From assembly GCF_000759025.1 (NCBI RefSeq), contig NZ_JPOS01000082.1, positions 1-64,000 on the forward strand: 64,000 bases of DNA, in the 5' to 3' direction. This document shows, in pieces, positions 14,541-19,693 of this stretch (the stretch's first letter is position 1; the number at the start of each line of letters is the position of its first letter). A model generated the notes under the pieces. That model made no database searches. It was not told the DNA's origin and saw only the letters and a program-made list of their open reading frames with translations. A program made the position numbers and the translations under genes. The stretch is from Phaeodactylibacter xiamenensis (GTDB lineage Bacteria > Bacteroidota > Bacteroidia > Chitinophagales > Saprospiraceae).

Positions 14541-14730
14541 ACCACGGAATACTCGGAAAACACGGAAATGGGGGGTGGGGTGACCACGAAATATGCGGGA
14601 AACACGGAAATGGGGGGTGGGGTGACCACGGAATACGCGGAAAACACGGAAATGGGGGTGGATGACCACGAAATATGCGGGAAACACGGAAATGGGGGGT
14701 AACCACAGAATACACAGAATACACGGAAAT
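14541..14730 (+). repeat. Left array: five copies of a 29-nt ACCAC...GGAAAT repeat
   Basis: Copies begin at 14541, 14583, 14625, 14665 and 14702; the first three are spaced exactly 42 bases, then 40 and 37. The core reads ACCAC(G/A)GAATAC, then a variable (A/C)(A/G)CGGAA-type stretch, ending CACGGAAAT; between copies lies GGGGGGTGGGGTG. The last copy is the cleanest. It ends 24 bases before the GxxExxY gene. Confidence 0.9.
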
Positions 14731-14754
14731 TAGGGAGCTTTAAAAATATAGAAT

Positions 14755-15141
14755 ATGGACAATCACGAAGGATTATTATACAAGGAAGAAAGTTACCGGA
14801 TTCGGGGTGCTGTGTTTGAGGTGTACAGGGAAATGGGTGCTGGTTTTTTGGAAGCGGTTTATCAAGAGTGCCTGGAAAAGGAATTGCGTAGTCAGCAAAT
14901 CCCCTTTATTGCACAGCCTGCCCTTGATCTTTTTTATAAGCAGGAAAAGCTAGATACTACTTACAGGCCAGACTTGATTTGTTACGGCAAGATTATCGTA
15001 GAGCTGAAAGCGGTAAAAGAAATCGCGGATGAGCATCGGGCCCAGTTACATAACTATTTGAAGGCTACTGGTTTTCGGCTAGGGTTTTTGGTGAATTTTG
15101 GACATTACCCCAAAGCGACAATAGAAAGAATTATCAAATAG
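14755..15141 (+). CDS. GxxExxY protein, PDDEXK_3 nuclease-like
   Basis: 128 residues, no signal peptide. The family motif is G30-x-x-E33-x-x-Y36 (MGAGFLEAVYQECLEKEL). A PD-(D/E)xK core follows: RPDLIC (D73), then IVELKAV (E83-x-K85), and a Gln/Tyr-containing helix QLHNYLKATGF. These residues fit a restriction-like nuclease fold, but no activity has been shown for the family to my knowledge. It is bracketed by two arrays of the same short repeat in opposite orientation (14541-14730 and 15166-15285), which makes it look like a self-contained cassette placed between two minus-strand genes. Base composition of the flanks is unlike the neighbours. Confidence 0.9.
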   Translation: MDNHEGLLYKEESYRIRGAVFEVYREMGAGFLEAVYQECLEKELRSQQIPFIAQPALDLFYKQEKLDTTYRPDLICYGKIIVELKAVKEIADEHRAQLHNYLKATGFRLGFLVNFGHYPKATIERIIK

Positions 15142-15165
15142 CCTACTGCCACCATAGCTAAAGCC

Positions 15166-15285
15166 TTCCGTGTATTCTGTGTCTTCTGTGGTAGAAAAAA
15201 CAACTCCATGCCTTCCGTGTCATCCGAGTATTCTGTGGTAAAAAGAAAACTCCATGCCTTCCGTGTATTCCGCGTCTTCCGTGGT
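15166..15285 (-). repeat. Right array: three inverted copies of the same repeat
   Basis: Copies at 15166-15192, 15213-15239 and 15259-15285 (spacing 47 and 46). Each reads TTCCGTGT...TGTGGT or a close variant, the reverse complement of the left-array core; the linker here is AAAA-rich plus CTCCATGCC. Together with the left array it forms long inverted flanks of the GxxExxY gene. Confidence 0.88.
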
Positions 15286-15304: not shown

Positions 15305-18300
15305 CTACAGCATCCCCATCACCTCCACCGCCGCCAGCAGAAAAGCACCCAGCCCAAAAGGCTCCGTATGATCAGTATCAATTTGTTCGGGGGCATGGCC
15401 TACGCGTTGTACGCTGCCGAGGCTGCCATCCGGACGGATATGCCGCAGCAAGCCTTCCCATGCCCGCTCCATGACCGGACGGTAGGTCGCCTCATCCAGA
15501 TAACCATTGCGGATGCCATTGGCCAGGGCGTAACAGAACAGGGCTGTACCGCTTGTCTCCGGCAATGGGTAGTTTTGGGTATCGGTCAGACTGACCCTCC
15601 AGAGCCCGTCTTTGCCCTGTAAGGGAGCGATACCGGCTGCCATCTGTTGGAGTAATTCGATGTAGTACGACCGCCTCGGGTCACTTTCCGGCAGATGCTC
15701 CAAAACCCGGACAATGCCGCCCATTACCCAGCCATTACCGCGCGACCAGAATACCTTGCCGCCGTCTTTGCCGTGGGTTTCAGGTTTATCGGGGGCGTAG
15801 ACGTATTTAGCATCCCGGAAAAAGAGACCGGTGGCGGGATCTTGCAGTGCTTTTGTGGCTTGCACCCATTTTTCGTGCATGAAATCGAGATATTTGGGAT
15901 CACCGGTGATTTCGGTAGCCAAAGCGAAAGTAGGCGGTGCCATGAAGAGCGCATCACACCACCACCATTCGGTACGCCCTTCGTAGGGGAGGCGCATAAA
16001 GCGGTCGAGCTCCGTCAGGCTCGGTTCCAGGTAGGCTTTGTTTCTGGTTTCCTGATACATTTCCAGCCAGGTGTGGGCAGCAAGGTGATTGTTGGCAATG
16101 TCAGGGTCGTACTTTAGCGGGGTGAACCGCTCCCGCTTGCCCCAGTCAGCCATATGTTTGAAAAAAGGAGCATGTCCCGTTTTTTCATAAAGTTTCCAAA
16201 GCCCGGTATAAAAGGTGGCCGCATTCCAGTAAGCGTTCTTGGTCCAGGCGCCTTCCATGACCGGGACGTAATTGAGCTTTGGGTAAATCTCCCGCAGGTG
16301 GTAGTCCACCATATTCCAGCAAATGGCCTGAATATCTTCCGGAGCATAAGGGGATACTTGTGTTAGTGAGGGCGGTACCTGCACCTTTCCCCATTCGGAG
16401 GGCGCTGATCCCATGATAAGCTCCAGTGTGCCGCCCTGCATCAGCTCCCGGTGGCGAAACCACGCCCGGTCGATCGGGATACCATTCAGTTTGGCCGATT
16501 GTACATAAATGTTTTCAGCAGACCGGCGGTGTGCCACCACGCTAAAGGTCTTTCCATTTTCCAATCGGATACGGCTACGGTCAAACAGCGGGCTGCCGAT
16601 GAGGTAAACATCCTGCCCGGCAACGGGGAAGAAGCCCATGCTGCTGAAGACGTACCAGGAAGAGATCGCACCGGAGTCGTCCTGTCCGGGAAGACCGTTA
16701 TGCCCGGCAGCGTACTTCCTTCTCATTAGATGCTGAACGGCTTCAGCGGTTTTATCCGGCCTACCCGCATAAATGTACTGATAGGGCAACAGGAAGAGCG
16801 GTTCATTACCGAGGTCAAACCCGGGGTCCAACAGCAAGCGGTCCAGGTACTTGATATAGGCTTCCGGGCTCCCATGACGTTGGATAAGCCCCCGAATATC
16901 GTGGGGCACATAGCTGCTGTAGGCAAGGGGCGTAGCTTCGTAAAAGTAGGGATCATTCCAGTGGTCTTTGCGCAGGTTTTCGGTGGTGATGCCAGGTTGC
17001 CAGTTGCCGGTTTGGTCTTTTGCCCAAAAATGCCCGGCTTCTTTGTTAAATAGCTTGTAAACGCCCTGTGAGCGCTTCCTGTACTCCCGGGCAGTTGCCG
17101 TGTCCCCTGCTGCTTCGGCAACTTTGGCAATACAGAAGTCATTGTAGGCATACTCCAGAGAGCGGGAAGTCGCCCCTTTGGCAGATGCTGAAGTGACATA
17201 GCCCAGTTTTAGGTAATCTTCCAGGTGGCGGCCGTGTTTTTTGGGATTATCAGAGGGATGTTCGGCATGATGCCGCAGGGCTTTTAACGCCTGTTCCAGG
17301 TCAAATCCACCCAGTTCTTTGGCAACGGCATCCGCAAAGGCGACATCCACATTTGTCCCGCCCTGTATGCTGCCGAAGTCGCCGGCTATCCAGGCATCCG
17401 GCAACCAGCCCTCCTTTTCGTAAATGGCCAAAAGGCTCTGAAGTATGCCTCGTTGTTGCTCCGGTGCAATCAGCGTATGCAGGGGCATAACGGTGCGGAA
17501 AACATCCCAAATACAATAATGGTCCCAGTAATGAGGCTGGCTTTCGGACCAGTCTTCGGTAGCGCCAGTGACTTCGGTGGGCATGAGGAAGGTATTGCGA
17601 AGAGTAGAATAAAACATCCGCTGATGCTCGGGCAGCCCACCTTCCACCTCAATACGGGAGAGCCGTTTGTCCCAGGACTGATCGGCAGCAGCTCTTGCTT
17701 GGTCAAATGAATTTTGCTTTTCCTCATCCAGAAATTTCTTGGTATTTTTTATACTTTTAAATGAAAGCCCAACCCTTGCTTCCACCTGCTGCCGCTGCGG
17801 TCCTTTGAAGGTTGCCCATGCGCCCATGCGGCGGCTTTTGACCGGCTGATCGTCCGGGAAGCGGATTGATAAGTTTTGCTGGCTGGGTAGGAGGGTGGTG
17901 TCTTGCCAAACACCTGCTGCATCAAAGGGGCGGTCGAACTGGGCGAAGAAATATACCTTATACGGGTTTTGCCCGCCCCAGCCACCGGCGAAATGGCCCC
18001 AGCCCTGAATGGCGTTTTCTCCAACAATCTCCACTTCGGCTTCGAGGCAACGGCTATCTTCCAGCTCCGTCCGGCCAATGGCATGTGCGACATCAATAAT
18101 CACCTGCCCTTCGATTTCCGGTGATTTATCCCAGGTGAAAAAAGTGTATCGATGGTAGCCTACTTTGGCAGAAGCCGTTAATTCCACTTCCACATCGCCG
18201 GGTTTTCGGGCAAGGGTGACAGCGTAGTACCCTGGTGCAGCCCGCTCATTGACCTGTTTTAGCGAAGCGTAATCTTTAAGGTTAAGCTCCTTCGTCAGTG

Positions 18301-19693
18301 GGGTGAAGAGGATATTCCCATACCGGCCACCTCCACCGGTCCCACTGGTATGAGTGTGGCTGAAGCCCGCGATAGGCTTGCCGGGGCGATAGCCGGAGGT
18401 GGGCTGCGGGGGCATAATGTCCGGGCTCAGCTTAACCATTCCAAAAGGGACGGAAGCACCCGGAAGCACATTACCATTGATACTCCCCAGGAATGGGTCA
18501 ACAAGGGCGGTGGATCTGGCAGGTACCGGATGGCCTATATCAGTACGTGGGGCGGACCGGGGGTGGCGGTTGGCTTGTTTTGACGGGGTGGGGCCTCCAA
18601 AGTAGGGGCCTTTTTCGAAAACAGTACCCTGGCCATTGGTACGCGGGTCATGAGTTGCTGATTGCCATTCGTTGAGGGTGTTGTGCAGCTCTGCTTTTAC
18701 CTGACTGTACTCCGGATTGGCGGCCTGATTTACCATTTGGTAAGGGTCTTCTGCAAGCACGTAAAGCTCCTCAGCAGGGCGTTTGCCGAAAGCCAGTTGC
18801 CTCAGGGGGCTGTCCTGCCCCTCAAGGATGGCGTCTTTCGTTACAGAATCATCGCAATCGCCGTAAGCACCTACCGCATAGATGTGCACAGGATCGCCCG
18901 CCGGATACCGGTCGGGTTCCAGGTTCCGGATGTAGAGGTAGTCTTTTGTCCGAACGGCCCGCATCGGATAGCTTTGGTTATCGGGGCGGACGTAGGCGTG
19001 GCGCTCTCGTTCCAGAAAGACTTGATCACGGTGCTTTTGGCTCTGCCCTTTGAGCAGGGGAAGCAAGCTTTGGCCTGACATTTCTCCGGGGACGGAAAGA
19101 CCAGCGGCCTCCAAAAAAGTTGGCGCCAGGTCGATGAGGTTGACAAAGTTTTCCATTTCACGGGCGGGCTGTAGTTGCCCTTTCCAGTAGACCGCCAGAG
19201 GGACCCTTGTCCCGTAGTCGTAAAGATTCGCTTTTGACCGGGGGAAGGGCATGCCATTATCGCTGGTGATGACAATAATGGTGTTGTCCAGCAATCCACG
19301 TTTTTCCAGTTCCCGAACAGCGGTACCGATCCGCCGGTCGAAGCGTTCCACCTCATAGAAATAATCAAGGATATCATCGCGTACCTCAGGCAGGTCTGGA
19401 AAAAAAGGTGGCAGATCAATGGCAGAGGCATCCATGCCCTGATTCGCCCCGCTCCCCGGTTCATACACCCGGTGGGGATCATTGCTGCCATCCCAAAAGC
19501 AGAAGGGTCGGTCCGGGTCCCGCAGTTTGAGGAAATCGGTGCAACTATCGTAATTTGGTCCAGCAGGATTGTGCAGGTAACCGCCTGCTTTTTCATTTCC
19601 GGGTCCCCATCCCTTATTGGCTTTACCAGTTATATATCCTGCTTTTCCAGCAAGGCTACATAATTGGGGAACGTATCCGGCAGCAGGCTCCAA
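15305..19693 (-). CDS. Sulfatase C-part fused to GH92 and GH105 (frameshift separates the sulfatase N-terminus)
   Basis: One continuous 1462-codon frame holds three enzymes. Residues about 15-355: S1 sulfatase body (GYITGKANKGWGPG, VITSDNGMPF, YGTRVPLAVYWKG, ELYVLAEDPYQMVN). Residues about 385-1090: GH92 alpha-mannosidase-like (VDPFLGS, GASVPFGMVKLSPD, GFSHTHTSGTGG, WDHYCIWDVFRT, GQDDSGAISSWYVFSSMGFF). Residues about 1108-1462: GH88/GH105 unsaturated glycuronyl hydrolase-like (EGAWTKNAYWNAATFYTG, WWWCDALFMAPP, FWSRGNGWVMGG, ETSGTALFCYALANG). Linkers are short and there are no internal signal peptides. The sulfatase N-terminus with its CTPSR site is in another frame (19980-19630). Such a triple fusion is very unusual; it may be a real modular enzyme, but neighbouring deletion chimeras suggest lost intergenic DNA. 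The codon at 19693 is not a natural start. Confidence 0.88.
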   Translation of the reverse strand: MEPAAGYVPQLCSLAGKAGYITGKANKGWGPGNEKAGGYLHNPAGPNYDSCTDFLKLRDPDRPFCFWDGSNDPHRVYEPGSGANQGMDASAIDLPPFFPDLPEVRDDILDYFYEVERFDRRIGTAVRELEKRGLLDNTIIVITSDNGMPFPRSKANLYDYGTRVPLAVYWKGQLQPAREMENFVNLIDLAPTFLEAAGLSVPGEMSGQSLLPLLKGQSQKHRDQVFLERERHAYVRPDNQSYPMRAVRTKDYLYIRNLEPDRYPAGDPVHIYAVGAYGDCDDSVTKDAILEGQDSPLRQLAFGKRPAEELYVLAEDPYQMVNQAANPEYSQVKAELHNTLNEWQSATHDPRTNGQGTVFEKGPYFGGPTPSKQANRHPRSAPRTDIGHPVPARSTALVDPFLGSINGNVLPGASVPFGMVKLSPDIMPPQPTSGYRPGKPIAGFSHTHTSGTGGGGRYGNILFTPLTKELNLKDYASLKQVNERAAPGYYAVTLARKPGDVEVELTASAKVGYHRYTFFTWDKSPEIEGQVIIDVAHAIGRTELEDSRCLEAEVEIVGENAIQGWGHFAGGWGGQNPYKVYFFAQFDRPFDAAGVWQDTTLLPSQQNLSIRFPDDQPVKSRRMGAWATFKGPQRQQVEARVGLSFKSIKNTKKFLDEEKQNSFDQARAAADQSWDKRLSRIEVEGGLPEHQRMFYSTLRNTFLMPTEVTGATEDWSESQPHYWDHYCIWDVFRTVMPLHTLIAPEQQRGILQSLLAIYEKEGWLPDAWIAGDFGSIQGGTNVDVAFADAVAKELGGFDLEQALKALRHHAEHPSDNPKKHGRHLEDYLKLGYVTSASAKGATSRSLEYAYNDFCIAKVAEAAGDTATAREYRKRSQGVYKLFNKEAGHFWAKDQTGNWQPGITTENLRKDHWNDPYFYEATPLAYSSYVPHDIRGLIQRHGSPEAYIKYLDRLLLDPGFDLGNEPLFLLPYQYIYAGRPDKTAEAVQHLMRRKYAAGHNGLPGQDDSGAISSWYVFSSMGFFPVAGQDVYLIGSPLFDRSRIRLENGKTFSVVAHRRSAENIYVQSAKLNGIPIDRAWFRHRELMQGGTLELIMGSAPSEWGKVQVPPSLTQVSPYAPEDIQAICWNMVDYHLREIYPKLNYVPVMEGAWTKNAYWNAATFYTGLWKLYEKTGHAPFFKHMADWGKRERFTPLKYDPDIANNHLAAHTWLEMYQETRNKAYLEPSLTELDRFMRLPYEGRTEWWWCDALFMAPPTFALATEITGDPKYLDFMHEKWVQATKALQDPATGLFFRDAKYVYAPDKPETHGKDGGKVFWSRGNGWVMGGIVRVLEHLPESDPRRSYYIELLQQMAAGIAPLQGKDGLWRVSLTDTQNYPLPETSGTALFCYALANGIRNGYLDEATYRPVMERAWEGLLRHIRPDGSLGSVQRVGHAPEQIDTDHTEPFGLGAFLLAAVEVMGML

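Follow-up and report, generated by a model that had tools for sequence, protein, structure and literature searches.

GxxExxY nuclease-like genes of Bacteroidota are paired with short repeats of their own, and across the sequences analysed this pairing is strong. The literature that we searched, which lacks most subscription papers, holds no report of it. The example we started from lies in a stretch of 64,000 nucleotides, here called the window, in which inverted arrays of one repeat enclose such a gene. Established for these gene-repeat dyads are their architecture, the private pairing of gene and repeat, their co-variation, their co-occurrence in genomes and the existence of solo hairpins with cognate arms, as are a hairpin that one species carries at a site where others lack it, and changes of array copy number in place. 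From these traits we infer binding, cleavage and mobilisation by the GxxExxY protein. With a probability of roughly 0.55, the locus is a gene-repeat dyad whose nuclease would recognise its private repeats and, in some lineages, act in trans on hairpins.

The window gene (14755-15141, plus strand) encodes 128 amino acids of the PD-(D/E)XK nuclease family and is a member of both TIGR04256 (142.8 bits versus a cut-off of 35) and PF13366 (145.7 bits versus 22). Upstream, an array on the plus strand (14541-14728) comprises five direct copies of a 27-nt repeat (14541-14567, 14583-14609, 14625-14651, 14665-14691 and 14702-14728), with starts 37-42 bp apart (successive steps of 42, 42, 40 and 37 bp). 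Downstream, three inverted copies follow on the minus strand (15166-15192, 15213-15239 and 15259-15285). Each of the 15 pairings of an upstream with a downstream copy is complementary at 19 to 26 of 27 bases, with 26 of 27 between the gene-proximal upstream arm (14702-14728) and 15166-15192, and each 27-mer consists of three sub-repeats of about 9 nt. Allowing up to three mismatches, the repeat matched 12 times in the 7.87-Mb genome, 8 times within the 745 bp of the locus, and the reversed control pattern had 0 matches across the same genome; the arrangement is thus not due to chance. Re-reading the arms confirmed the five direct and three reverse-complement copies which the initial annotation had placed around the gene. 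The other four matches are on contig C39, at two places: a clear inverted pair of the window-type repeat without a gene, and a degenerate inverted pair with a single arm matching it. Neither region contains a GxxExxY match. The spacers between the upstream arms (14568-14701) are G-rich (GGGGGGTGGGGTG) and could form a G-quadruplex. A CRISPR array was ruled out, since the spacers of the upstream array themselves repeat (family D1). Next to the locus, a 1462-aa ORF on the minus strand (15305-19693) presumably resembles a sulfatase joined to glycosidase-like parts.

Five GxxExxY genes are encoded in the window's genome. The other four copies are 29-69% identical to the window protein, and beside each of them we found, by eye, short repeats that recur roughly every 9 nt and whose sequence differs from gene to gene. 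The unit reads CACGGAA in the window, CACGAAA on C6, CACTAAG on C76 and CACATAG on C39, while the C5 version combines CACAGATT and GATCAGTGT. Arrays are inverted around the gene at C6, C76 and C39 and were seen on one side at C5 (all by eye); for C76 and C39 (loci L002 and L005) the period itself is an observation by eye, as lag 9 did not stand out in a crude single-lag score of the whole loci. A looser pattern of three CACNNA units 9 nt apart, devised after these loci had been read, gave 12 matches in this genome (reversed control: 1). Four directly flank a GxxExxY gene (C6, C82); the remaining matches, which are more distant or on different contigs, are similar to the versions of C82, C6 or C5, C39:169212 only loosely.

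One relative, G004, in which the neighbouring gene is 93% identical, carries the same cassette at the same site. It has two upstream copies (one shortened) and one downstream, versus five and three in the window, and its flanks are colinear with those of the window up to the arrays, which indicates that arrays grow or shrink in place. As this single same-site relative is also filled, no empty site was found for the window cassette; G001 holds a 70% homologue of the neighbouring gene in another context. Some GxxExxY genes are adjoined by tandem arrays of longer units (L005 at 1900-2700, with units of about 125 bp, L021 and L023), and these units contain inverted copies of the short repeat. Close tandem pairs of GxxExxY genes, about 540-740 bp apart, occur as well (L086; G203:C1:3199652-3200531).

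We then asked how generally the left arm of a gene fits its right arm. GxxExxY genes are common in the phylum: TIGR04256 matched in 194 of 392 Bacteroidota genomes, 191 of them above the cut-off, and flanks were taken from the 91 gene-bearing genomes with the best-scoring matches. For 80 genes from the phylum and one genus, we aligned the 400 bp ahead of the gene to the reverse-complemented 400 bp behind it, leaving aside eight loci that repeat the window, loci lacking an ORF match (L043, L044, L046) and flanks shorter than 150 bp. A score of at least 30 was reached by 40 of the 80 genes, whereas control ORFs of these loci reached it in 3 of 67 cases and mismatched pairs in 23 of 471. Matches in direct orientation were also raised (24/80 genes, 5/67 control ORFs, 8/471 mismatched pairs), because long tandem units stand on both sides in some loci. 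A larger set, in which similar rules kept 231 of 251 genes, gave inverted scores of at least 28 for 125 of 231 genes versus 2,938 of 53,130 mismatched pairs, and 56 of 231 in direct orientation. Counting against the dyad reading, 106 of these 231 genes stay below 28 in the inverted match and 56 also match directly.

Paralogues within one genome provided a stricter comparison (27 genomes with at least two sampled GxxExxY genes, 70 genes in total). Of 130 comparisons, 114 favoured a gene's own right arm over that of a paralogue as the partner of its left arm, 7 were tied and 9 went the other way, and the own-arm mean exceeded the paralogue mean in 26 of the 27 genomes; scores of at least 28 were found for 43 of 70 own pairs versus 8 of 130 paralogue pairs. 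Protein identity correlated with arm similarity among the 231 genes (Spearman 0.221, null maximum 0.066) and among the 70 paralogous genes (0.207), where arms swapped within genomes gave 0.106 ± 0.024 and none of 1,000 swaps reached the observed value. The arm version therefore goes with the gene and not merely with the genome.

The arms are tandem arrays of CACAGAG-like heptamers, mostly 9-10 nt apart. For a census of 250-bp flanks, in a sample widened by named loci of the genome collection, we used 181 of 195 genes, excluding loci that repeat the window, those sharing the same last 60 residues and flanks below 120 bp. An array of two heptamers stood upstream in sense in 126 genes, downstream in antisense in 127 and on both sides in 100; the other orientation was seen upstream in 42 and downstream in 37. 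Control gaps contained such an array in 20 and 21 of 214 cases on the two strands. At 5.97 versus 0.75 per kb-strand, array density is about eight-fold higher near the gene, a ratio that is descriptive because the motif was drawn from the same loci. As the counted loci also supplied the heptamer pattern, our claim rests on the sequence-blind tests, namely flank, paralogue and swap comparisons. In 81 of the 181 loci one flank or both are without a recognisable array, in 28 of them both, which counts against the dyad reading. Heptamer starts were most often 9 nt (191 intervals) or 10 nt (166) apart, followed by 11, 12 and 8 nt (63, 52 and 47), and the 9-10 nt spacing is close to one turn of DNA. 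Four-letter autocorrelation over 462 flanks was highest at lags 9 (2.06 times the control) and 10 (1.64 times), with 1.61 times at lag 12. Where present, arrays lie at a median distance of 29 bp from the start codon on the upstream side and of 9 bp from the stop codon downstream.

At the level of genomes, triple arrays of CRCARAG were found in 129 of 392 genomes with 986 matches (reversed control: 7). They occurred in 119 of 194 genomes with the gene versus 10 of 198 without (odds ratio 30, p = 7e-36). Pooled within seven families, as we listed them, the odds ratio was 16.6; f5 and f24 alone were significant on their own among the seven, and f17, f35 and f4 showed no association by themselves. 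Also against the dyad reading, 75 of the 194 gene-bearing genomes lack a triple array, in part because other arm versions escape the CRCARAG pattern. The initial annotation had treated gene and arrays as one cassette, and this is borne out by the match of arms against mismatched pairs and paralogues, by the co-variation of protein and arms and by their co-occurrence in genomes. It had also proposed that the idea would fall if the repeat were as frequent away from such genes as next to them. Repeat-rich genomes do hold many copies elsewhere, but 969 of the 986 triple-array matches are in gene-bearing genomes, so that this rule is too simple.

The GxxExxY protein models as a Cas4/RecB-type PD-(D/E)XK nuclease, judged by predicted fold and residues. 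The structure model of the window protein (pLDDT 93.5, pTM 0.86) has 4ic1 / SSO0001, which we take to be a Cas4, as its closest solved fold (Foldseek E 1.2e-4; in VIA Z 9.9, rmsd 3.2 and 98 aligned positions, the next entry at Z 7.7), and the nearest solved folds are mostly DNA nucleases. No credible solved relative was found by sequence. The residues D73, E83 and K85, noted as intact from the window sequence at the outset, are identical in 80 of 80 homologues, as are Q97 and Y101, and all five are invariant in the 32 rows of alignment A1. D, ExK and QxxxY form the RecB/Cas4 pattern. PADLOC returned weak matches to the candidate family PDC-M36A (best E 1e-5) and to Cas4 (E 0.011). The names of the TIGR04256 and PF13366 models assign no function, and we found no assigned role for GxxExxY genes.

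Could the protein simply regulate itself? It might bind the phased arrays as an autoregulator, with solo hairpins as the sites of its regulon and neither cleavage nor movement involved. The 9-10 nt spacing puts the sites on one face of the DNA, the upstream array lies at the place expected of a promoter, and private pairing and co-variation would be equally expected. But D, E and K are invariant in all 80 homologues, arrays are as close after the stop codon as before the start, and near-perfect hairpins with freely varying loops would be unnecessary. We regard autoregulation as unlikely.

These hairpins are gene-less. Among 20 inspected regions with array matches from six genomes, none had a GxxExxY match (E 0.01) in a test that detected the window locus. 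In G254, four of seven regions contain near-perfect palindromes and three less perfect ones. Within 24 hairpins from six genomes of one genus, the two arms of a hairpin differ on average by 0.29 of 25 nt versus 2.86 of 25 nt from the arms of other elements in the same genome, a set chosen in a way that favours good hairpins (27 loci, 25 with an arm pair, 24 kept after one at 14 of 25 was dropped). Their loops vary from 11 to 39 nt. Arms that are near-identical within a hairpin and differ between hairpins are the trace expected of a hairpin or a copied intermediate. Folded as DNA, three solo hairpins of one genus scored z -14.9 to -18.9 versus shuffles and one solo pair of the window's genome z -4.2; the L005 array unit (z 0.40) folded no better than shuffles.

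At one hairpin site of G254, the element was absent (BLAST) in 11 of 11 relatives with both flanks available. The gap between the flanks measures 350 bp in G254, 31-34 bp in G403, G412, G423 and G431 and 50-192 bp in the others, and G406 has a different hairpin at this site. A target-site duplication was not readable, since the flanks are too diverged between species. Extra matches at query positions 989-1108 belong to another palindrome and were excluded from the copy counts.

Some solo hairpins fit a cassette of their own genome. The sampled solo arms of G412 and G418 are identical to the upstream arm of a particular GxxExxY cassette in the respective genome, and those of G428 are one base off such an arm; the downstream arms of these cassettes are less well kept and decayed in G412. 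The other cassettes read in the three genomes have different arms or none recognisable. These cognate cassettes share one site before an aldo/keto-reductase-like gene (name assigned by eye), where exact insertion boundaries are not readable because the intergenic sequence is too diverged. In the gap between this gene and the next (L388-L415), differing, unrelated-looking hairpins were seen among the species read of one genus.

Among 36 genomes of this genus, whose species are not independent, the cognate gene at this site is intact in 6, broken or partial in 10 and absent or unseen in 20. The site locus was not sampled in 6 of the 36; G409 was scored intact from coordinates and the other five were counted as absent. 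Exact copies of the cognate-arm pattern, including a few arms of the cassettes themselves, numbered 62, 29, 22, 11, 2 and 0 in the genomes with an intact gene (reversed control 0 throughout) and never exceeded 9 in the remaining 30 genomes (Mann-Whitney p = 0.0023). Four of the 6 genomes with an intact gene, but none of the other 30, had at least 10 copies (p = 0.00025), with a cut picked after the counts were known. Against a copy-number rule, G409 and G414 have an intact cognate gene with 0 and 2 copies, and G254 and G422 have 8 and 9 copies and no intact cognate gene; the latter fit gene loss with relics left behind but allow other readings. Beyond this genus, a match to some sampled cassette in the same genome was found for 22 of 51 distinct solo repeats from ten genomes (p ≤ 0.05), where solo was defined by distance from sampled cassettes alone and the L260 cassette was absent from the flank set. 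A class of repeats with spacing 8 in one genus had no partner among the sampled cassettes. In the repeat-rich genome G393, the single GxxExxY gene lies on a contig with none of the 10 listed repeat places.

We propose the following working for a repeat-recognising nuclease. A small Cas4/RecB-type PD-(D/E)XK enzyme would bind helically phased heptamers private to its own lineage, and the recognised repeat would flank the gene as one array per side, the two arrays being inverted relative to each other. Gene-less inverted pairs that share these arms may, in some lineages, be further targets of the nuclease in trans; it would most likely cut or trim the hairpin or cruciform that such a pair can form. 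Repair or ectopic copying would then keep the arms and occasionally spread gene-less pairs, a REPIN/RAYT-like working by an unrelated enzyme. The initial interpretation is thereby supported in part. Its cassette holds, and of the roles it had offered, a repeat-recognising nuclease is the best reading of the sequences. An aid to homing or transposition is compatible with the gene-less hairpins and with the one hairpin site empty in relatives, but no autonomous movement was seen, and nothing observed points to the RNA-guided unit it had also considered.

RNA could nevertheless be the level at which the arms pair: cassette or hairpin would be processed or folded as a transcript, and the protein would trim this RNA or be its cargo. 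There is a precedent, as rRNA intervening sequences carry a four-helix-bundle gene. We had chosen 30 genes of the four-helix-bundle family TIGR02436 (L418-L447) as a negative control, and 0 of 30 had a heptamer array oriented as expected (3 of 30 had one upstream with the opposite orientation), which supports the specificity of the arrays beside GxxExxY genes. Yet 10 of the 30 had matching inverted flanks (mismatched pairs 15/870, direct orientation 2/30), formed by repeats of another sequence class with autocorrelation peaks at lags 7, 8 and 14. A family that is not a nuclease by name is thus boxed by other repeats, so inverted arms need not mean nuclease targets, and gene-plus-repeat dyads may be more general. 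This similar architecture of an unrelated family favours pairing in RNA, as do the strong folding of the three solo hairpins, albeit computed as DNA, and one cassette between fabD and fabG. Against this, the closest solved folds are mostly those of DNA nucleases, pairing alone leaves the differing arms of paralogues in one genome unexplained, and the L005 unit does not fold beyond shuffles. Seven loci gave no Rfam match at gathering score, which also discards a known RNA family; a sub-threshold match on the window (E 0.26) was judged to be chance. We consider action on RNA to be quite improbable.

A passive origin is disfavoured and in our view very improbable. The repeats would be non-autonomous elements of some other transposase, with GxxExxY genes among them by chance or through a shared insertion preference. 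Copies of the repeat are indeed numerous away from the gene, and one genus shows a fast turnover of intergenic palindromes of different types. However, each gene has private arms within one genome, arms co-vary with the protein, array density is eight-fold higher near the gene (with a motif from the same loci) and such arrays were absent in the expected orientation beside all 30 TIGR02436 genes.

Outside the main sample, a small set of other phyla and records, read by eye, agrees with the pattern in part. Inverted repeats on both sides were seen in a Bacteroides finegoldii plasmid, a Bernardetia plasmid, a Melioribacter contig, a contig binned as Rhizobium and the viral contigs L115 and L116. 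Repeats on one side were found in Sphingomonas, viral contig L117, an Ignavibacteria contig, a Spartobacteria contig and Gemmatirosa, a short inverted repeat in Treponema, direct repeats in a Fusobacteria and a Prevotella plasmid (L275, L278) and no recognisable repeats in Persicobacter. The cassette between fabD and fabG is on a Sphingomonas plasmid (L276), with 33 and 2 bp of intergenic sequence. With the window protein as sole query, by which distant members may be missed, 8 of 72,556 plasmid and 0 of 50,697 phage records carry the gene, and carriage by phage or plasmid was rejected on these numbers; among viral contigs, the single-protein scan found none and an alignment scan three. In another reading the locus is a defence or toxin-antitoxin module, whose tandem repeats would serve as a type III-style RNA antitoxin or be a sensed sequence. 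This would draw on repeats ahead of a nuclease gene and on the weak PADLOC matches, but it is most improbable given the inverted repeats after the gene, the gene-less hairpins elsewhere and the scarcity in plasmid and phage records with this query.

The dyads are most reminiscent of REP/RAYT systems and REPINs. Judged by PMC2817692 and PMC3116915, the two kinds of system share a gene between two inverted repeats, distinctive paralogues with a repeat each, repeats that also form inverted doublets or hairpins with complementary changes, and co-variation of gene and repeats; in one genus, repeat number tends to track the cognate gene. RAYTs are described in PMC3116915 as single-copy and distinctive, REPINs as inverted doublets. 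Of these traits, inverted flanking is present in the window and not in every GxxExxY member, dispersed doublets with complementary arms were found in one genus in depth and in other genomes as examples, and co-evolution is seen in the within-genome arm swaps. The GxxExxY system is nevertheless no member of REP/RAYT, as both enzyme and repeat differ: a PD-(D/E)XK nuclease instead of the Y1 transposase, and tandem heptamers in short arrays instead of an internal palindrome with a GT(A/G)G head. The window protein matched TIGR04256 and PF13366 alone and not the Y1 transposase model (Pfam Transposase_17), and by eye neither the window arms nor the hairpin arms have a GT(A/G)G head or internal palindrome.

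As in MITEs, gene-less inverted pairs share their ends with a gene-bearing form, but GxxExxY loci are without transposase, a target-site duplication is unreadable and the five copies in the window's genome are diverged. With Cas4, RecB and lambda exonuclease the protein shares its predicted fold and the invariant D, ExK and QxxxY positions. Cas4 has iron-sulphur cysteines, whereas GxxExxY is a small single domain without any cysteine among the invariant columns of A1. PMC8934634 reports that an annotation tool labelled a gene in cas4 position as GxxExxY.

A private, co-varying DNA partner offers a concrete substrate for tests of GxxExxY proteins, and the pairing suggests an origin for one class of interspersed repeats in Bacteroidota. 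It would add a nuclease-based counterpart to REPIN/RAYT systems and opens the question of whether such dyads survive as parasites or as components useful to the genome. At somewhat less than even odds, GxxExxY genes could be independently evolved, transposase-free enzymes that maintain and spread private hairpin repeats in about half of the sampled Bacteroidota genomes and, together with the boxed four-helix-bundle genes, would make dyads of a small gene and a private repeat general, overlooked inhabitants of genomes. The words nuclease and RAYT are absent from the main text of a 2025 survey of REP sequences. A Bacteroides fragilis paper lists a primer with a string that resembles GxxExxY arms.
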